From Levilactobacillus suantsaii (GTDB taxonomy: Bacteria; Bacillota; Bacilli; Lactobacillales; Lactobacillaceae): a stretch of 64,000 bases of DNA. The notes beneath the pieces were generated by a model, which had not been told where the DNA came from, did not search any database, and saw only the letters and a program-made list of their open reading frames with translations. The stretch covers positions 62,001 to 126,000 of the forward strand of contig NZ_QXIL01000001.1 in assembly GCF_004115745.1 (NCBI RefSeq), written 5' to 3'. Below, piece after piece: positions 26,426-42,978 of the stretch (within the stretch, counting starts at the first letter, position 1; the number at the start of each line of letters is the position of its first letter). Both the position numbers and the translations under genes were made by a program.

Positions 26426-28861
26426 TTAGTCCGTGACGGCCAGTTCGTCAGCCAACGCACTCGTCGCGGCGATGCGGCCGAAGGTGAAGATATCGGCTAG
26501 TGAATTGCCACCGAGCCGGTTGCCGGCATGAATCCCCCCAGCCACTTCACCGGCCGCGTACAAGCCGTCGATGGCCGTGCCACCGGCCGTCAAGACATGG
26601 GCGCCGGTGTCGATCTTCAACCCACCCATGGTGTGGTGGGTCGCTGGTTTCCGTGGCGTAGCGTAGAACGGCGCGACCTTGACTTTCAGGTCAAAGGCGT
26701 TCTTGTGGAACTCTGGATCATCGCCAGCGTCGACATAGCTGTTGTAGTCGTGAACCGTCTTGACCAGCGTGTCCGGGTCAACCTTGATCTGACGCGCCAA
26801 ATCTTCTAACGTATCGGCTCTAAACAACGTCCCCGCTTCAACTTGTTGGTCAATCTTCGCTTGCGTCGTGTTGTACGCGGTCTTCTTGATTTCATCATCG
26901 GCGAGGAGATAGAACAGACTACCGTTGTCGATGGCGGCCTGGGTGAGTTGGTCCCGACTGCCGTACTCGTTGACGAACCGCTTTCCCTGCTGGTTGATCA
27001 TCACGTAGTTCTGCGGCGGCACTTGCAGGCCACTAAAGAGTTCACCGGTATCCGGGTCAGAAACGGGCATCATCTGCGAGAAGCCCATGCCAACCAAGTC
27101 GGCGCCCACAGCAGTCGCTAAGCGAATGCCGTCCCCGGTCATAGCCGGGGAGTTGGTGGTCTTGATGTCATCATCGATGTTAGTCCAGTACGTGTTGTAC
27201 TGTTTCAACATCTTGGTGTTAGCCGCAAATCCACCGGAAGCTAAGATGACGGCTTGGGCGTGAACGGCTAATTCTTGGTGGTCAACGCCCTGGGCCTGAA
27301 CGCCGACGACCCGGCCATTTTCGGTGGTCAGTTGCGTGACGTCCGTTTCGGTCATGATAGTGCCCCCATGACTGGTGACATATTGCTTAAGCGTCTTGAT
27401 GTACGCAAAGCCCAGGTCGCCCATTGGCTTGTGACCGCGCCGCCAGATGGCACCGACCGGCATCGTGACCTGCGTCTTATCGAACTCGACGCCGATCTTT
27501 TCCAACCATTGTACGGATTCCAAGGCGTGGTCGGTCAATTCTTTGACCAAGTCGTATTGGCCGTAAATCTTATGGCCCTGTAAGTCGCGCCGCTTCCCGC
27601 CCAAATAAGTTTGGATGCGGTGGAGCAACTTCGAATCGAACAAGTAACCACGTTGATCCGTGTTCTCTTGCAAGTAATCGTTGATTTGGTCCTTCAAGGC
27701 CCGGAAGTCTGGGCGATATTCGGGATCGATAGTCGCTTCATCAATCTCCGTAATTTCCTTCAAGGTGTGTTTTTCACCCAGAATGGCGTCAAACTGGCGT
27801 TGCCAATCGGGGTCGGCCGCGTTCATCGGTCCCCCAGCCCGGACGGTGTTCCCACCGACTGCCGGGAATTTTTCTAAGACCAGCACGCGTTTGCCACTTT
27901 GGAGTATTTTAGCGGCGGCAGTCAGACCAGCCCCACCGGCACCTACAACGACCACGTCGGTATCGAGGTCTTTGATTGCCGGTTTAGCAGCGGCAGTTTG
28001 CTTCGGCCGCTTCTTCAAGATGTCGGGGTCAGCACCGGCTTGCTTAACCGCTTCAGCCACCCCATCAATGACGCCGTGACTGGTAATCGATGCTCCGGAG
28101 ACGGCATCGACATCCAGCGTTTGCCCGTCAACGATTTGCTTGGGAATCCGTTCAAAGGCCACGTCGGCGATGCCTTCCGTTTCCGTGGACGCGTCAATCT
28201 GGATGTTCTCGATTCGGTCCTTCGATAAGGTAACCTGCATCGGGAGTTCCCCGTTGTGGCCGGTCGCCGTCACGTCATAGGTCCCGGGTTGATAGTTAAT
28301 CTCATCGGGCACGTTCATGGCTTCGACCACCTTAGTGAACTTCATGAACTTCTTAAAGCAACTGGTCAAGAAGTCGACCGTGCCGCTAGATTTCAAGTTA
28401 CCCTGTTCGTCAAACGCAGTGTGAGCGCGACCCAGTAAGAATTCTGAGCCGGGCATGACGTTAGCGCCGACGCCGGGGGCATCTAAGACTTGGCGCAGAT
28501 GCAGTTGCACACGGGAAGAGCCTTGGACACTGTAAGAGGCCCCAACGATCATCACTGGTTTGCCATCTAACGGGTGGGCCTTAAAGGACAACCATTCCAA
28601 GAGACTCTTCAACGCGGAAGGCAACGAGTGGTTATGTTCGGGCGTTGCCACGATGACCCCGTCAGCCGCCGTAATCTTTTGGATGAAGTTTTGGATGACC
28701 GGACTGTCCGTTTGGTCTTGCGATTCGTTAAACATCGGGACGTCGGTCAGTTCTAAGATTTCAATTTCCGCTTGGTCTTGAAAATGAGTCTGCATGTACG
28801 TCAGTAACTGACGGTTATATGACTTACGGGCGTTGGTGCCCACGATTCCGATAAATTTCAT
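26426..28861 (-). CDS. hcrB: Three-domain flavin reductase / flavocytochrome c-like enzyme, probable hydroxycinnamate reductase HcrB
   Basis: An 811-aa fusion. Residues 1 to about 190: an NADPH-dependent FMN reductase-like flavodoxin fold ([28 protein letters not shown]). About 205-285: an FMN_bind domain with the flavinylation motif [13 protein letters not shown]. About 300-811: a fumarate reductase-type FAD domain ([29 protein letters not shown], and [12 protein letters not shown] and [11 protein letters not shown] further on, ending [31 protein letters not shown]). The length, the preceding hcrA-like gene and the divergent LysR gene match the hcrRABC locus of L. plantarum, which reduces hydroxycinnamic acids. 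Other 2-enoate substrates remain possible. No signal peptide, so cytosolic. Confidence 0.8.
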
Positions 28862-28864
28862 AGT

Positions 28865-29482
28865 TTACTCCTTTCCAGCTGTGAGTTGACTCCAGGAAAA
28901 CTGACGGGTCTCCTCAAAGAACTTGTTTTGCGGTGTGATTTTTTGCATCAACGTGACAAATTCAGTGAAGGCTTGAAAATCCTTGTCCAATTCCTGCGCC
29001 TTCGCTTGATCGACCAGGTCCCCCTGTTCGTCAAAGGCTTGTAACGAGTGGCCCAACATGTATTCGACGTTGGGCATGACCAGCGCTTTTAATTCGGGCG
29101 CTTCTAAAATCTGGCGTAAATGCGCCTGGGCACGAGAAGTTCCTAAAGACCCATACGATGCACCGACGACCATCACGGGTTTGTTGATCAACGGCCGCGT
29201 GGTATAGGACAACCATTCGATGGCGCTCTTCAAAACGGCCGGAATAGAGTGGTCATATTCGGGGGTCGCAAAAATGACCCCGTCCGCGTGTTCGATCTGG
29301 TCCGCCAACTGCTGTACGGCAGCTGGCGCGTCCCGTTGTTCTGGTTCATTAAAGGCTGGTAAATCAGCGATTTCACAAATTTCTAATTCCGCAGTTGACG
29401 CAAAATGGCGTTGCATATACTGTAACAACTGCCGGTTGGTCGATTTCACGGCGTTAGTGCCGACAATTCCAACTAATTTCAA
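28865..29482 (-). CDS. hcrA: NADPH-dependent FMN reductase, probable HcrA
   Basis: A 205-aa flavodoxin-fold reductase (MKLVGIVGTNAVKS, DGVIFATPEYDHSIPAVLKSAIEWLS, VMVVGASYGSLGTSRAQAHLRQIL). It is clearly homologous to the first domain of the next gene, so one of the two arose by duplication. TTG start after AAAGGACG; the hcrB start follows after three bases. In L. plantarum the equivalent protein works with HcrB in hydroxycinnamate reduction, presumably by feeding reduced flavin. No long 3' extension. Confidence 0.75.
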   Translation of the reverse strand: MKLVGIVGTNAVKSTNRQLLQYMQRHFASTAELEICEIADLPAFNEPEQRDAPAAVQQLADQIEHADGVIFATPEYDHSIPAVLKSAIEWLSYTTRPLINKPVMVVGASYGSLGTSRAQAHLRQILEAPELKALVMPNVEYMLGHSLQAFDEQGDLVDQAKAQELDKDFQAFTEFVTLMQKITPQNKFFEETRQFSWSQLTAGKE

Positions 29483-29530
29483 GATTCAACGTCCTTTCTA
29501 GGTGTTCACTCACATCTGCTACACATTTTG

Positions 29531-29549
29531 ATAATAAAAAGGTTATTAT
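29531..29549. promoter_or_regulatory. A/T-rich inverted repeat in the hcrA-hcrR divergent region
   Basis: Perfect 7-bp arms ATAATAA/TTATTAT with a 5-bp spacer lie 49 bp upstream of hcrA. The hcrA side has no recognisable -35 box, as expected for an activator-dependent promoter. A second, widely spaced repeat GGGGCG/CGCCCC lies at 29559-29589. Either may be the HcrR site; assignment is by position. Confidence 0.4.
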
Positions 29550-29686
29550 TAAGGGACCGGGGCGGATGAGATTCGGTAAAAAACGCCCCAGTTCTACAAA
29601 TGCTAGTTTACGAGTAACTGCTTAGTTTGTGAAATATTTATTTATCTATTGTCCCATAGCAATTTTGTTATCAAGGAGGAATTCGT

Positions 29687-30631
29687 ATGCCCAAAGCAGA
29701 CCCCTTTCGGATGCGGCGCTTCTTAGACGTCCTGCTCAAACACGGCAACTTTACCCGGGCAGCCAAAGATCTTTACATCTCGCAACCCTACCTTACGCAA
29801 ACGATTCAAAACGCCGAAACCGAACTCGGCGTTGCCATCATCAACCGGGCCACGAGCCCCATTAGATTGACTGCCGCCGGGCGGATTTATTACCAATACC
29901 TAACCACGTTAGAGAACGAACAAGCTCAGTTTCATAAACGGCTGAGTCAATACACGGCCCCCGCCAAGCAAGTCATCCGGGTAGGCATCCTGTCCAGCTT
30001 AGGCTACTACCTATTGCCACTGATTTTGCCAGACTTTTTACAGGTGCATCCCACGGTCAAAATCGACCTGACTGAAGACATCTCCGAACGCAACGAGCAA
30101 CGCTTATTACACCACGACTTAGATTTTCTGATTGGTCAAGATCCCCAAACCATCGCGGCTGGCTTGACGGTCCACGACCGCGGCCATGACGGGTACTACG
30201 CCATCATTCCGCACACGTCTGCCCTATACCAGCCACATCAGGCTTACATCAACCCCCACTCACTTTCAATGGACCAACTTATGCAGGCGCCACTGGTCTT
30301 ATCGCCGCAGGGATCGTCGATTCGGCGGCAAGTCGATTACCTGTTGCAAAAATTCCACGTTGACCCGCACATCGTGGTCGAAAGCAGCAATACTTTGACC
30401 GTCCAAAAACTGGCGCAACGGGGGCTGGGCGTGACCTTTCTGCCGGACAGCGTCACCGTTACGCCGGATAGTGCGCACTACAACCTCTATCCGTTACCCC
30501 AAGACCTGGTCTCACTAACTTACTTCATCGCCTCTCCAGCCGGAAAAGAATTAACGACTCCAGAAAAGGATTTTGTGACCCTCTTTTTGACGAACCTCGA
30601 GGCCAGTCTGGCGGACCCCTCTTCGCGCTAA
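29687..30631 (+). CDS. hcrR: LysR-family regulator, probable HcrR
   Basis: A 314-aa LysR protein. The N-terminal winged helix is FRMRRFLDVLLKHGNFTRAAKDLYISQPYLTQTIQNAETELGVAIINR, and the two-lobed effector domain follows from about residue 95 (VIRVGILSSLGYYLLPLILPDFL). AAGGAGGAA precedes the ATG. It is divergent from hcrA, the usual LysR arrangement, and corresponds to HcrR of the L. plantarum hydroxycinnamate locus. It probably activates hcrAB in response to a phenolic acid. The inducer is inferred from synteny only. Confidence 0.82.
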   Translation: MPKADPFRMRRFLDVLLKHGNFTRAAKDLYISQPYLTQTIQNAETELGVAIINRATSPIRLTAAGRIYYQYLTTLENEQAQFHKRLSQYTAPAKQVIRVGILSSLGYYLLPLILPDFLQVHPTVKIDLTEDISERNEQRLLHHDLDFLIGQDPQTIAAGLTVHDRGHDGYYAIIPHTSALYQPHQAYINPHSLSMDQLMQAPLVLSPQGSSIRRQVDYLLQKFHVDPHIVVESSNTLTVQKLAQRGLGVTFLPDSVTVTPDSAHYNLYPLPQDLVSLTYFIASPAGKELTTPEKDFVTLFLTNLEASLADPSSR

Positions 30632-30649
30632 GACACGTCACACGAAGAA

Positions 30650-30691
30650 CTGGACGGTGAGTCCGCTAAAATGCGCGAACTCACCGTCCAG
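30650..30691. terminator. Long-loop hairpin after hcrR
   Basis: Perfect 13-bp arms CTGGACGGTGAGT/ACTCACCGTCCAG with a 16-nt loop lie between convergent genes. There is no clean T tract, so termination efficiency is uncertain. Confidence 0.55.
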
Positions 30692-30733: not shown

Positions 30734-30871
30734 TTACTTGGCGCCTTTTTTAGTGGGCTCCTTTTGCTCGCGGTGTTCGGCGATATTGCAGCCATCGGGA
30801 CCACAAACGGCACTCGCGTCCGCGTCGCCTAGCGATTTAAAATTCGGTGTCGTCGATTGTTTTTCAGTCAT
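30734..30871 (-). CDS. 45-aa two-cysteine microprotein coupled to the DsbA-like gene
   Basis: Starts MTEKQSTTPNFKSLGDADAS, contains VCGPDGC (Cys23 and Cys28, C-X4-C) and ends KKGAK. A GAGGAGG ribosome site overlaps the end of the DsbA-like gene, and the ATG begins one base after that gene's stop codon, so the two are translationally coupled. The paired cysteines next to a thiol oxidoreductase suggest a substrate, a metal carrier or a redox partner. Family not recognised. Confidence 0.7.
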   Translation of the reverse strand: MTEKQSTTPNFKSLGDADASAVCGPDGCNIAEHREQKEPTKKGAK

Positions 30872-30872
30872 T

Positions 30873-31523
30873 TTAATCGACCTCCTCAGCCAAGACCTGT
30901 CGCAAGGCACTTACCATGGTGTCGTAGGGTTGCGCACCGGAAATGCCATACTTGTCGTTCAACACGAAGAACGGAGCACCCTGAATCCCCAGCTGTTGAG
31001 CTTCGGCCTCATCACGGCGAACGTCTTGTGCATACTTGTCACTTGCTAACACGTCATCAACCGCCGCTGCGGGTAAACCAGCATCCACGACCGCACGCCG
31101 TAAAACGGTATGGTCTGCGATAGACGCGCCTTCGCTAAAGTAAACGTGGTACAACGCGGTGATCACTTGCTCCGTCACAACCGCATCACCTGACGCCTGA
31201 GCCAACTTGATCAATCGGTGAGCATCCATGGTGTTCGTTGGGATAGCGTGAGCTAAATCAATCGTCAACCCATCGCCAGCGCCCATTTGCTCAATCTGGG
31301 CCATTTGTGCCTGTGCCTGGTCGACCGTCATGCCGTGACCGCCAGCAAAGTTGTCGGTCATCGTCTTCGTGGTCGTCGTCGGTAAGGTCGGATCCAGTTG
31401 AAACGCCTTGAACTCCAAGGGCGTCTCGTCAGCAATGCCTAATTCCTTGATGGCGCGCTTCATGCGCGTCGACCCAATATAACAAAACGGACAAGCAATA
31501 TCGGACCAGTACTTAATTTTCAT
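30873..31523 (-). CDS. DsbA-family thiol oxidoreductase, FrnE-like
   Basis: A 216-aa thioredoxin-fold protein with the active site ACPFCYIG near residue 11, a helical insert, and the cis-proline loop QGAPFFVLNDKYGISGAQP near residue 180. The FrnE-type pattern (no signal peptide, CPFC, GAPFFV..YGISGAQ) points to a cytosolic disulfide oxidoreductase or isomerase. The start is the ATG at 31521-31523 after GGAGGCGC; a longer frame runs into the operator. First gene of an operon with the 45-aa cysteine protein. A 22-bp palindrome upstream is shared with the ArsR-rhodanese gene. Confidence 0.87.
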   Translation of the reverse strand: MKIKYWSDIACPFCYIGSTRMKRAIKELGIADETPLEFKAFQLDPTLPTTTTKTMTDNFAGGHGMTVDQAQAQMAQIEQMGAGDGLTIDLAHAIPTNTMDAHRLIKLAQASGDAVVTEQVITALYHVYFSEGASIADHTVLRRAVVDAGLPAAAVDDVLASDKYAQDVRRDEAEAQQLGIQGAPFFVLNDKYGISGAQPYDTMVSALRQVLAEEVD

Positions 31524-31534
31524 GTTGCGCCTCC

Positions 31535-31556
31535 TATTCAATTACTTAGTTGAATA
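31535..31556. promoter_or_regulatory. 22-bp operator upstream of the DsbA-like gene
   Basis: Perfect 7-bp arms TATTCAA and TTGAATA separated by 8 bp. The same arrangement, with one mismatch, occurs at 32279-32300 upstream of the ArsR-type gene. ArsR-family dimers bind palindromes of this size. Confidence 0.7.
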
Positions 31557-31598
31557 GATTCAGTTTAACAGTTTGCTCTAATTTGTCAATTCACCGGC

Positions 31599-32243
31599 CT
31601 ATCCTGTCACAGCCACCTGCCAATCATAATAACTCGCATGCAGGCTGTAGGCCTGACGTCCCCGTTGGCGTAGCCACTGCGTCGCTTGATTCGTGAGACT
31701 ACAAAGTGGCCCCCGACAATACACAATCAATTCCTGATCAGCTGGAATCTCAGTCAGGCGGTCGCTAAGTTCATCGACGGGGATATTATAGGCCCCGTCA
31801 ATATGTCCCACCTGAAATTCCTCCGCTGGGCGAACATCCAAGAGTTGCACGTCATCGCGGTCCATCAGTTTCAGGGCCGTCGACAAATCTAACGTTTGGA
31901 TGCGTTTAACCGTATCATCGTGGCGTTGAATGGTCTGCATGGTGGGCAACTGGGCCTCCCCCACGTCACGTAACAAGTAGAAAAGCTGTTCGACCTGGGC
32001 GGACGCCAAACAATAAATGGCGTAATTGCCCCGCTGAACACGGCCCACCAAATTGGCCTCCCGCAACGCCTGGAGGTGCCGCGACGTGTTGGCAATGCTC
32101 ATTCCGGTTTGCTGCGCTAAGGTCGCCACTGTTTTGGGACTTTGGGCTAATAAATCCATGATCTCTAAACGCCGGTCGCTCGCCAAACTTTTGCCAATCT
32201 TCGCCAGTTCCCGATACAGCTGCGCATGCTGGCCTGCTGCCAT
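31599..32243 (-). CDS. ArsR-type regulator fused to a rhodanese domain
   Basis: A 214-aa fusion. Residues about 5-95 are an ArsR winged helix (LASDRRLEIMDLLAQSPKTVATLAQQTGMSIANTSRHLQALREANLVGRVQRGNYAIYCLA). Residues about 120-212 are a rhodanese domain with LLDVRPAEEFQVGHIDGAYNIP and the active loop VYCRGPLCSLTNQA, where the catalytic cysteine follows tyrosine. The start is the ATG at 32241-32243 after AAGGAG. The rhodanese cysteine could sense persulfide, sulfide or oxidants, with the ArsR part as output. A 22-bp operator upstream is shared with the dsbA-like operon, so it probably controls itself and that operon. Confidence 0.85.
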   Translation of the reverse strand: MAAGQHAQLYRELAKIGKSLASDRRLEIMDLLAQSPKTVATLAQQTGMSIANTSRHLQALREANLVGRVQRGNYAIYCLASAQVEQLFYLLRDVGEAQLPTMQTIQRHDDTVKRIQTLDLSTALKLMDRDDVQLLDVRPAEEFQVGHIDGAYNIPVDELSDRLTEIPADQELIVYCRGPLCSLTNQATQWLRQRGRQAYSLHASYYDWQVAVTG

Positions 32244-32278
32244 ATCATCAGACTCCTTTCCGTGTCGTTGACTGCTAT

Positions 32279-32300
32279 TAATCAACGATTTAATTGAATA
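32279..32300. promoter_or_regulatory. 22-bp operator upstream of the ArsR-rhodanese gene
   Basis: TAATCAA and TTGAATA arms separated by 8 bp, differing at one base from the perfect copy at 31535-31556. It lies 36 bp upstream of the start codon. Confidence 0.65.
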
Positions 32301-32344
32301 GCTTTATTTTACTGTCTTGTCCGCGTTTGTCAACTTTCGGGCCA

Positions 32345-32405: not shown

Positions 32406-32915
32406 TTATTGCAACGGGTAAACCATTTCAACGGCCGTAACTTGTTCACCGTCGTCATCGGTCACCGTTTGCTCAGCCGTTTGGGTCCGTTGAAAGCCCA
32501 TCTTTTGGTAGAGCTTCATGGCCGCCACGTTGCGCGTTTGCACCAACAGTCCCACTGCTTCTAAGGTACTGGCCGTTTCTGCCCAATACAGGGCTTCATC
32601 GACCATCGCCGTGCCAATCCCTTGGCGCTAATAAGCCTTTTCGATGGCAATCCCCAACTCACCCACGTTGCCTTGTGGGGTGGGCGCAATCGACAACACC
32701 CCGATCAAGCGGTCACCAAGACTGGCGACCAACAACAAGTGGGTCGGACTCTGATTGATCTGTTCTAACTGATCGGCTTCTTGCACAACGCTGATCGGGT
32801 CGTCAGCGTCTGCCAACGTAAACGTGTCACTTTCTCGCTGCAATTGCGTGAGTAACCGCAAAAGTTGCGCAGCGTCAGTGGCTTCTGGTAGCCGAATGGC
32901 GACTTCTTCACTCAT
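32406..32915 (-). pseudogene. GNAT-family N-acetyltransferase interrupted by an amber codon
   Basis: The single frame encodes a 169-codon GNAT acetyltransferase, start MSEEVAIRLPEATDAAQ, with LLLVASLGDRLIGVLSI and, later, VGLLVQTRNVAAMKLYQKMGF. An in-frame TAG at 32628-32630 falls between AIEKAY and RQGIGTAMVDEAL, exactly at the residue before the acetyl-CoA loop, where the family often has tryptophan; TGG to TAG is one base. Without readthrough the product lacks the cofactor site. The start overlaps the tsaE stop by 8 nt; a RimI-like enzyme behind tsaE is the common order, so the ancestral role may be protein acetylation. Confidence 0.8.
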
Positions 32916-33384
32916 GACATGAAGCCTGTAATTGGGCGACCAACTGGTCAAAGTGGTCCCCGTGCGGCTCAAAGCTCAACGTCCGCTGATTTTCCCCGGC
33001 TGCGTCGTCACGCTTAAAGATAATCCGCAAATAATGTTCTGGCAATTCGTCGGCGATAAACTTGGACCATTCGACCACGTTAACGCCATCGCCATTGAAG
33101 TATTCCTCTAAGCCCAATTCATCCCCACTGCCATCTTCCAAGCGGTAGACGTCCATATGATATAACGGTAACCGCCCGTCTTGGTACTCGCGGATGATGG
33201 TAAACGTCGGACTCTTGACGTTCCGTTTAATGCCCAGGCCCGCCGCTAATCCCTTGGTAAAGGTCGTTTTACCGGCACCCAGGTCTCCATCTAGTAAAAT
33301 GACATCCTTGGCACGTAGGCCGGGCGCGAGTTGCTGCCCGATTGCCATGGTCATCTCTGGACTTGTGACCGTCATTTTTAACAT
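32908..33384 (-). CDS. tsaE: tRNA threonylcarbamoyladenosine biosynthesis ATPase TsaE
   Basis: A 158-aa P-loop ATPase needed for the t6A37 modification of ANN-decoding tRNAs. Walker A LDGDLGAGKTTFTKGLA, the following VKSPTFTIIREYQDGRLPLYHMDVYRL, and ELGLEEYFNGDGVNVVEWSKFI are diagnostic. The start is the ATG at 33382-33384 after GAAGGGG, removing 13 residues from the longest reading. Its stop overlaps the GNAT pseudogene start. It follows the pta terminator, so it has its own promoter or depends on readthrough. Confidence 0.92.
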   Translation of the reverse strand: MLKMTVTSPEMTMAIGQQLAPGLRAKDVILLDGDLGAGKTTFTKGLAAGLGIKRNVKSPTFTIIREYQDGRLPLYHMDVYRLEDGSGDELGLEEYFNGDGVNVVEWSKFIADELPEHYLRIIFKRDDAAGENQRTLSFEPHGDHFDQLVAQLQASCHE

Positions 33385-41706: not shown

Positions 41707-42978
41707 CTACGCTCCAGTGTAGCACAAAATTAACGATGGCCCGTAAACTTCCGGCGAAAAATCATACCGCCACTCAAAATGAGGCCGAACAAGCCCCAAC
41801 CTGAGAAGCTTCCAGTCGGCGTTGGCTCCCCCCGTTTGCGGTAGCTTGACGCGTGCGTGAGGGGCGTGGTTGATTGCAGAGCGAGACGTTTGCCGGTCAA
41901 CTGCAATCCGTTGCGTCCGCTTTAGCGTTTGAACACGTCGGTGTCCGGGTCGTTCAGGTCGGTCCTTAAATTGGGCCACGGTCGTTGGTAAGTCAAGGCC
42001 TTGCAACTGGTCGTGGTGGTCCTCAGTTAAAGTCGTATGGGACGTTACTGGCCTAGTTTGAGCCCTTTTTAGTGATACTTTAGTCGGTTGTGTTGGGAGA
42101 AACCAATTTACCACGCCAGGTTGTTTATGCGTCACCTGTGGTACTTTTTTTACTGGTGTTGGGCGCACCTGCACCCGCAATGGTTTAGTTTCTTGAACTT
42201 CTGACTGAGGCAGCTTACTTGTCACTGGCTTCGATTGTACCGGTGGGATTGGGCCTACTGGCGGTGTTGGCGCCATCGGCTTTGGGTGAGACTGTAAAGA
42301 CGGTTGCAACTGCGTTGGTAGCGTTACTGATGGGATTACCATTGGTTTAGATTGTGGTTGTGGAACTGATGTCACCACCTGTGAAGATTCTGGCTCACTA
42401 GTTGATGGCGTGGTAGCTGGTTGCTGCTCCGTTGGTCTGTGTATAGACTTAGGAACGACGTAAATCGTCATATCATTTTTCTTTTTAGTAATTCTTCGTT
42501 CACTATCGACCTTATTCGCAAAAGTATATCCTTTAGGCAGTTGATAATCTGGAACCCCTCCGACTGTAACCCACTGTAAGGATATCTTTTGATTGGGATC
42601 TACTTCTTTATTTTTATGACTAATATCAACGTAAAAAATAGTTCCAGATGCCTTGCTACCTCTATATGTAACTGTGTATTCCACCTGAGAAGACTGTGCT
42701 TTCTCGTTATTTTCACGACTATAACCATAGCCTTTTCCATCATAGATATCTCCAAGTCCTGGAACCAATTCATTTTCCATAACAGGAACATCATGTTTGG
42801 TCTTCAATTCTTTTCTTAAATATTCGGTATCCTTTCCGTTTTTGTATTCAAGCAAGTAATGTATCGTTACCTTAAGCTTATTATTTTCCGCGGCTTTAGC
42901 GCACCCCACGGACCCACTCCAACTACCACTCAAAACGGTGATCCCCACGATGACGGCCAACTGTTGCCATTTCTTCAT
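41707..42978 (-). CDS. LPXTG-type surface protein whose sorting-signal anchor is out of frame
   Basis: A 423-codon secreted protein. It has a signal peptide (cleavage probably after AKA near residue 30), a MucBP-like beta-rich region (KVTIHYLLEYKNGK to about residue 180), and a long proline-, lysine- and threonine-rich wall-spanning region, then KLPQTGGANADW. The present frame ends without a membrane anchor. Reading five instead of six G at 41828-41833 gives LPQTGEPTPTGSFSG, a hydrophobic WGLFGLILSGGMIF and the basic end RRKFTGHR, stopping at 41730: a complete sortase signal. So the tract decides between wall-anchored and probably secreted forms, or is a sequence error. Confidence 0.8.
   Translation of the reverse strand: MKKWQQLAVIVGITVLSGSWSGSVGCAKAAENNKLKVTIHYLLEYKNGKDTEYLRKELKTKHDVPVMENELVPGLGDIYDGKGYGYSRENNEKAQSSQVEYTVTYRGSKASGTIFYVDISHKNKEVDPNQKISLQWVTVGGVPDYQLPKGYTFANKVDSERRITKKKNDMTIYVVPKSIHRPTEQQPATTPSTSEPESSQVVTSVPQPQSKPMVIPSVTLPTQLQPSLQSHPKPMAPTPPVGPIPPVQSKPVTSKLPQSEVQETKPLRVQVRPTPVKKVPQVTHKQPGVVNWFLPTQPTKVSLKRAQTRPVTSHTTLTEDHHDQLQGLDLPTTVAQFKDRPERPGHRRVQTLKRTQRIAVDRQTSRSAINHAPHARVKLPQTGGANADWKLLRLGLVRPHFEWRYDFSPEVYGPSLILCYTGA

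Follow-up and report, generated by a model that had tools for sequence, protein, structure and literature searches.

A candidate sulfur-responsive ArsR-rhodanese regulon with a probably split FrnE-type DsbA in Levilactobacillus suantsaii and other lactic acid bacteria

The window, meaning the whole stretch of 64,000 nucleotides of Levilactobacillus suantsaii analyzed here (contig NZ_QXIL01000001.1, positions 62,001 to 126,000), carries a gene that joins an ArsR-type DNA-binding domain to a rhodanese domain. This gene is followed by an operon for a DsbA protein of the FrnE type and a microprotein with two cysteines. Each of the two transcription units is headed by a promoter-like pair and by one copy of a palindrome with the consensus TATTCAA-N8-TTGAATA. 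The features of the locus, in window coordinates, are as follows.

32306..32333, minus strand: promoter-like pair of the regulator gene, with -35 TTGACA at 32328-32333, a 16-bp spacer and -10 TAAAAT at 32306-32311; the operator starts 5 bp downstream
32279..32300, no strand: operator 1, TAATCAACGATTTAATTGAATA, with one mismatch to the consensus
31599..32243, minus strand: ArsR-rhodanese regulator, 214 aa, with the helix-turn-helix (HTH) at residues ~20-66, the rhodanese domain at ~122-209, and Cys176 and Cys181 in the motif CRGPLC
31562..31589, minus strand: promoter-like pair of dsbA, with -35 TTGACA at 31584-31589, a 16-bp spacer and -10 TAAACT at 31562-31567; the operator starts 5 bp downstream
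31535..31556, no strand: operator 2, TATTCAATTACTTAGTTGAATA, matching the consensus exactly
30873..31523, minus strand: FrnE-type DsbA, 216 aa, with a CPFC active site, no C-terminal C-X4-C tail and no further cysteine
30734..30871, minus strand: two-cysteine microprotein, 45 aa (CGPDGC), 1 base past the dsbA stop codon; proposed detached FrnE C-X4-C tail

The regulator gene starts at an ATG at 32243 with a ribosome-binding site, 35 bp from the edge of operator 1. Its product matches the Pfam model HTH_5 with 46.4 bits (cut-off 22) and the NCBIfam model HTH_metalloreg with 66.9 bits (cut-off 55), and the rhodanese domain is recognized by Pfam with E = 1.9e-16. The DsbA protein matches FrnE with E = 1.1e-40. 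A preliminary description had reported the same palindrome at both genes, and this is borne out by the exact and one-mismatch copies listed above; the interval that it gave takes in both palindromes and the ArsR-rhodanese gene, with the DsbA and microprotein genes falling just outside. The cassette of the window is a reduced form, consisting of DsbA and the microprotein with neither a thioredoxin (Trx) nor a thioredoxin reductase (TrxB).

Several other features lie nearby. The interval between the microprotein gene and a convergent LysR gene contains an inverted repeat, CTGGACGGTGAG ... CTCACCGTCCAG, at 30650-30691, which is perhaps a two-way terminator. The LysR gene is divergent from an FMN-reductase gene and a gene for an 811-aa FMN-reductase/FMN-binding/FAD fusion (26426-30631, by Pfam), and flavin genes related to these recur near the regulator in loci L057 and L071, as judged by clustering. 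On the other side, between the regulator and tsaE, a GNAT acetyltransferase frame (32406-32972) is split in two by a stop codon at 32628-32630.

Bare counts of palindrome matches are not significant, either in the window or in the genome. The window holds four matches at up to three mismatches, with 2.38 expected. A genome-wide search for the motif, as the preliminary description had proposed, did find it at only these two places at one mismatch or fewer in the 2.43-Mb genome (70 contigs, 99.88% complete), a count that is not significant in itself, as the reversed control pattern gives one genome-wide match at the same threshold. The significance of the palindrome comes from its position and conservation rather than from raw counts. 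At two mismatches the genome has 14 sites, including one inside the window at 42801-42822. Nine of these lie within frames of more than 290 codons, two (L120 and L122) lie only in frames of 60-61 codons, and three (L119, L121 and L124) lie in none; the latter five were kept out of the regulon, no thiol-related gene having been recognized by sight after any of them.

Conservation was computed across 58 loci, namely the window and 57 fetched loci, which were reduced to 42 non-redundant loci by dropping regulators whose aligned sequences were 93% or more alike; a second regulator copy in genome G366, also with CRGxxC, was left out of the locus counts. A site for the regulator's own gene (up to two mismatches, within 200 bp upstream) is present in 30 of the 42 loci. 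The same threshold yielded sites in 47 of 8400 shuffled upstream regions and in 3 of 277 control upstream regions, and all three of the latter belong to divergent genes that use the regulator's own site, leaving 0 of 274 independent. A second site, within 1 kb after the regulator and before the next operon, occurs in 28 of the 42 loci; 24 loci have both sites and 8 have neither. With redundancy kept, the own site is found in 42, the following site in 41 and both in 36 of the 58 loci. The preliminary description had staked its proposal on the presence of the motif in orthologous loci, and most of these do carry it.

The sites also fall in front of particular genes. Across the 42 loci there are 43 sites at one mismatch or fewer, of which 33 stand before the regulator (13), Trx (10), DsbA (5) or TrxB-like genes (5); three more precede cluster c52, which lies beside msrB, five precede other genes, including divergent neighbors, and two precede no called gene. 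The 12 regulators that have no own operator at up to two mismatches include four with a Trx gene directly upstream (L092, L098, L100, L101), the other eight being those of L064, L065, L066 (which has three mismatches), L071, L082, L090, L104 and L105. A variant operator, TATTCTACG-N4-CGTAGAATA, is found upstream of Trx in L092 and L103, with one end base different in L103. The regulators of these two loci read SKNLQ rather than SRHLQ in the presumed recognition helix, so that regulator and operator may possibly have co-evolved.

The placement of the sites relative to the predicted promoters is nearly constant. By our own promoter scoring, 29 of 30 regulator sites have their operator start between -3 and +6 bp relative to where the best-scoring -10 ends, and 22 of 30 target sites have it between +4 and +6 bp. 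This position is the geometry of a repressor site, and binding of the regulator to it is predicted.

The genes behind the second operator form varying sets drawn from thioredoxins (WCPPC, WCAQC, WCPDC), thioredoxin reductase, DsbA and the microprotein, joined in several loci by a 443-aa disulfide-reductase-like flavoprotein. Adjoining the regulator, L088 has two exact palindromes, and L089 a single one-mismatch palindrome, before msrB and then an MsrA-like gene (MsrB by Pfam, MsrA by sight). In the 42 loci, Trx occurs in 25, DsbA in 18 and the microprotein in 19, with at least one of the three in 32; the other 10 have none of them within ~5.5 kb, a figure to be read with the fact that contig ends cut some loci. 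Within the genus, 6 of 35 genomes have DsbA (E ≤ 1e-40), and precisely these six hold the regulator, a co-occurrence that is not independent functional evidence because the genes form one linked cassette. A separate microprotein is present in four of these 35 genomes, and in the remaining two of the six it is fused to thioredoxin. The predicted targets read as thiol repair genes, and for the window this reading leans on its relatives. In passages of a ribose transcriptome of L. sakei (PMC3146418), the ratios are negative for both the ArsR-rhodanese gene LSA0217 and trxA1 (LSA0218), which is weakly consistent with shared control.

Evidence of a different kind comes from operons that are separate from the regulator. 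In genomes G119 and G143, a Trx-TrxB-DsbA-microprotein operon is unlinked to the regulator, lying ~706 kb away or on another contig, and a palindrome with one mismatch directly precedes each of these operons (TATTCAATGAATTCGTTGAATG and AATTCAACGAAGTCGTTGAATA). These loci were found with a microprotein profile, the palindrome being no part of the query. Their palindromes support a trans-acting regulon. The same profile matched 20 of 301 family genomes, and 19 of these 20 belong to the 43 in which the regulator was found. In G266, G319 and G298, unlinked microprotein genes that lie beside an HxlR-like gene and an MBL-fold gene (named by sight) have no palindrome at up to two mismatches. A second group under different regulation is seen in loci L170, L171 and L172, with an HxlR-like gene, another FrnE-type DsbA, an MBL-fold protein and a CGPDGC microprotein but no palindrome.

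It could be argued that the palindromes are terminator-like elements or sites of a different regulator that lie next to the ArsR-rhodanese gene by chance. AT-rich palindromes are common at loose thresholds, and 1 of the 30 target sites, the second one in L060, resembles a hairpin. The concentration of sites at these operons over 42 loci, the nearly fixed -10 geometry and the unlinked target operons make this explanation extremely improbable. The circuit outlined in the preliminary description, in which the ArsR-rhodanese protein controls itself, DsbA and the microprotein, gains support, its chemistry apart, from the conserved operator and the two unlinked operons.

The microprotein has no Pfam or NCBIfam match, and a possible origin for it is suggested by the distribution of cysteines in the DsbA family. 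The CPFC active site is present in every DsbA-cluster protein of the non-redundant loci (20 of 20), and none of the 33 such proteins in the full set of 58 loci has the C-terminal C-X4-C tail. Among 11 FrnE-type homologues from outside, taken from 199 phylum genomes, nine have C-X4-C in a C-terminal tail, and the two that do not are the most distant (27-30% identity). The tail of Deinococcus FrnE reads GCEDGQC; the otherwise similar entry 5cp1 has serine for its first cysteine. Conversely, a CGPxGC protein, separate or fused to thioredoxin, accompanies DsbA in all 31 loci in which DsbA lies within ~5.5 kb of the regulator, the fusion being found in L092, L101 and L103. Most simply, then, the microprotein would be the detached C-terminal C-X4-C tail of a FrnE-type DsbA, and the two proteins may work together. 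The DsbA of this system resembles Deinococcus FrnE and Streptomyces SCO1869 in its DsbA fold and CPxC motif, but the C-X4-C tail that is fused in those proteins is carried here on a separate microprotein or a thioredoxin fusion.

Profile comparisons gave faint matches for the microprotein. It matched the C-terminus of the FrnE-like SCO1869 (EACGPDGCAV) with E = 2.2 and slr1513 (CGPEGC) with E = 0.99; matches to two cellulases, at E = 0.022 and 0.14, were judged not meaningful. Because the E-values are too weak, the link between the microprotein and FrnE rests on position and motif. The slr1513 product is the cyanobacterial SbtB, which shares the motif near its C-terminus and is otherwise a different protein; the CGPxGC loop of SbtB is a redox switch. 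FrnE-like DsbA proteins (~30% identity) also occur on many plasmids, with 275 records from Klebsiella, 96 from Enterobacter and 95 from Escherichia.

The preliminary description had also placed a candidate sensor cysteine in the rhodanese domain, and the alignment agrees: Cys176 and Cys181, in the loop CRGxxC, are the only invariant cysteine columns and are conserved in 58 of 58 regulators. No cysteine of the HTH domain is conserved across these 58 sequences, so that neither an ArsR-type cysteine metal site nor a pair of the BigR/SqrR type is present. BigR, SqrR and YgaV sense with two cysteines inside the ArsR domain. The window regulator shares with them the ArsR fold and, in some of its distant relatives, a persulfide-handling neighborhood; it differs in that the invariant pair lies in the fused rhodanese domain and the ArsR domain has no conserved cysteine. 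Sequence matches to the BigR and YgaV structures cover the HTH part only, and the BigR model scores 28.5 bits on the regulator against a cut-off of 155. No solved structure matched the whole ArsR-rhodanese architecture by sequence, and an AlphaFold2 model of the regulator, built from two sequences, was discarded with a mean pLDDT of 46.

The rhodanese loop bears on the function of the protein, and Cys176 is the predicted catalytic cysteine of the domain. Rhodaneses usually have an active-site loop of the CxxGxR type, with arginine at the sixth position; the loop here is CRGxxC, with no arginine at that position, in 58 of 58 regulators. An intact Pfam rhodanese domain would fit a protein that is mainly a working sulfurtransferase, with a DNA-binding domain that controls its own gene only. 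This is very improbable in view of the departure from the usual loop and of the recurrence of the operator both before the thiol operon and at unlinked operons.

Some distant regulators adjoin genes for persulfide or sulfur handling. In L135, an exact palindrome lies just upstream of the regulator, and the neighbors are an MBL enzyme and a TauE protein. The best match of the MBL enzyme is structure 3r2u, which we take to be CstB; further matches include ETHE1, a persulfide dioxygenase (4chl), and related entries, and the enzyme reaches the cut-off of no NCBIfam model. L135 is thus similar to CstB/ETHE1 operons in having the regulator followed by a persulfide-dioxygenase-type enzyme, but the window locus has no such gene; CstB operons are under CstR-type regulators. 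DsrE lies beside the regulator in L108, L111 (assigned through clustering with L108) and L136, the last of these having a site with two mismatches immediately before the regulator gene. L104, which has no operator, encodes a protein of the Pfam family Sulf_transp and a rhodanese-domain protein that resembles CoA-disulfide reductase, the latter scoring below the NCBIfam cut-off. Control of persulfide or sulfide metabolism, as with BigR/SqrR, is suggested by gene neighborhood for some of these distant regulators, not for that of the window. Our best guess for the ligand is a sulfane-sulfur or organosulfur signal, because of these sulfur-gene neighborhoods.

A general oxidant sensor could look much the same from its targets. 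In that case H2O2, HOCl or quinones would join Cys176 and Cys181 in a disulfide, with no sulfur transfer and with the rhodanese fold as scaffold, and a loop with two cysteines does suit a simple disulfide switch. Furthermore, the Trx, TrxB and MsrB-MsrA targets (MsrA by sight) are functions that allicin induces in B. subtilis, where passages of PMC6943732 name trxA, trxB, msrA and msrB. Such a sensor is nevertheless rather unlikely, since Asp136, Arg138, His147 and the loop cysteine are invariant in 42 of 42 regulators and since some neighbors in distant relatives come from persulfide- and sulfur-handling families.

Relatives of the regulator (E ≤ 1e-20) are patchy in distribution: the genus has them in 6 of 35 genomes, the family sample in 43 of 397 and the order sample in 15 of 295, counts that include the genome itself and come from overlapping samples. 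A profile search of the phylum sample at E ≤ 1e-30 gave 3 of 249, again including the genome itself. A scan of named genomes returned one relative, in L. plajomi, and a scan of viral contigs with the regulator family profile returned none. Plasmids are a richer source, with 197 records matching the window regulator at E ≤ 1e-20 and 128 matching a Leuconostoc-type regulator at E ≤ 1e-50. Eleven loci (L073-L081, L083 and L084) are near-identical copies of the module in seven genera, on contigs of ~9 to 50 kb, and so point to recent horizontal spread. The plasmid relatives examined outside the lactic acid bacteria number five: in that from Priestia, genes for Trx, an SDR and an AhpD/CMD protein lie close to the regulator, and those from Deinococcus, Rhodococcus, Phaeobacter and Enterobacter have no Trx or DsbA among the genes listed.

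The plasmids also supply most of what can be said for a metal or metalloid sensor (Cu, Cd or As), in which the rhodanese cysteine pair would be a soft-metal site and DsbA and the thioredoxins would serve metal tolerance. All three lactic acid bacterial module plasmids examined carry dps beside the regulator together with copper genes (a multicopper oxidase or a P-type ATPase), and one also carries arsC. A copC-family gene lies near the Deinococcus relative, the regulator belongs to the ArsR family, and FrnE is cadmium-inducible according to the title of a cited reference. Against these points stand the HTH domain with no conserved cysteine in 58 sequences, the fact that no metal efflux gene was found directly behind an operator among the genes identified in the mapped loci, and the persulfide and sulfur genes beside distant relatives. 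A metal sensor is accordingly judged improbable.

Among the known systems closest to the fuller module are clusters for tolerance of thiosulfinates such as allicin. Passages of PMC8417944 describe a Pantoea alt cluster with DsbA, TrxB and a TetR regulator, and passages of the PfAR-1 work (PMC7119367) and of a review (PMC8001868) state that a FrnE-like dsbA alone raises allicin resistance in Pseudomonas. The likeness lies in a horizontally moved FrnE-like DsbA accompanied by Trx or TrxB. The combination with Trx and TrxB occurs in the relatives and plasmids, and the window has DsbA only. The difference lies in the regulator, which is of the TetR type there and an ArsR-rhodanese protein here. 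Among the flanking genes identified in the lactic acid bacterial loci, osmC, kef, Old Yellow Enzyme and AhpD/CMD were not recognized. A passage of PMC10826663, citing Lim 2015, calls Leuconostoc and Weissella allicin-resistant and names no gene. A search of open-access full text, which takes in little of the subscription literature, listed nothing recognizable as an operator or ligand study of an ArsR-rhodanese protein, or as a study of this cassette in lactic acid bacteria.

The sources of the plasmids were compared with those of controls. Kimchi or garlic is the source of 25 of the 60 matches listed from the 128 module plasmids and of 8 of the 60 listed from 229 Rep_3 controls; these rows are not independent, their origins were counted by eye, and a "kimchi jar" among the controls was taken as kimchi. 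Among rows listed with a stated source the figures are 25 of 56 and 8 of 51 (one-sided Fisher p = 0.001), and among the L. plantarum rows listed they are 8 of 22 and 2 of 22 (p = 0.034). A first control proved to be mostly Enterococcus and was replaced. In a RepB control, 7 of 60 rows were from Leuconostoc, Weissella or Pediococcus, and three of the five with a source came from kimchi, one of which itself bears the module. The enrichment of module plasmids in kimchi and garlic is weak and the sampling bias is real. Tolerance of garlic thiosulfinates, though unproven, is a good guess at what the module does.

The reading that we prefer, and consider fairly probable, is a sulfur- or disulfide-responsive ArsR-rhodanese repressor of its own gene and of the dsbA-microprotein operon, with a split FrnE as its output. 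A dimer of the ArsR type would bind TATTCAA-N8-TTGAATA just downstream of or over the -10 and thereby repress both units. A thiol-reactive sulfur species (sulfane sulfur, a persulfide, an organic polysulfide or a thiosulfinate) or a disulfide stressor would then react with the cysteine pair of CRGxxC, and the resulting disulfide or sulfur-bridged pair would release the regulator from DNA. The induced products would reduce or isomerize damaged thiols, with the microprotein supplying the FrnE-type DsbA with a second redox pair (C-X4-C) in trans, and in many relatives the same switch would govern more genes, those for thioredoxins and thioredoxin reductase among them. A wider proposal is offered tentatively, as possible though doubtful: that this is a mobile regulon for organosulfur and persulfide stress, spread on plasmids, which works through a rhodanese-ArsR switch and a split FrnE and is the genetic basis of allicin tolerance in the Leuconostoc and Weissella of kimchi.

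Compared with the preliminary description, sequence comparison adds a fuller thioredoxin module in many relatives, the likely identity of the microprotein as a FrnE tail, and the sulfur-gene neighbors of distant regulators. The ArsR-rhodanese family would thereby acquire a defined operator, cysteine pair and target set, which would turn the ligand question into a simple reporter assay. A microprotein that had no name can probably be explained as a piece of FrnE now encoded on its own, and a candidate gene module is at hand for the allicin resistance reported in kimchi bacteria.
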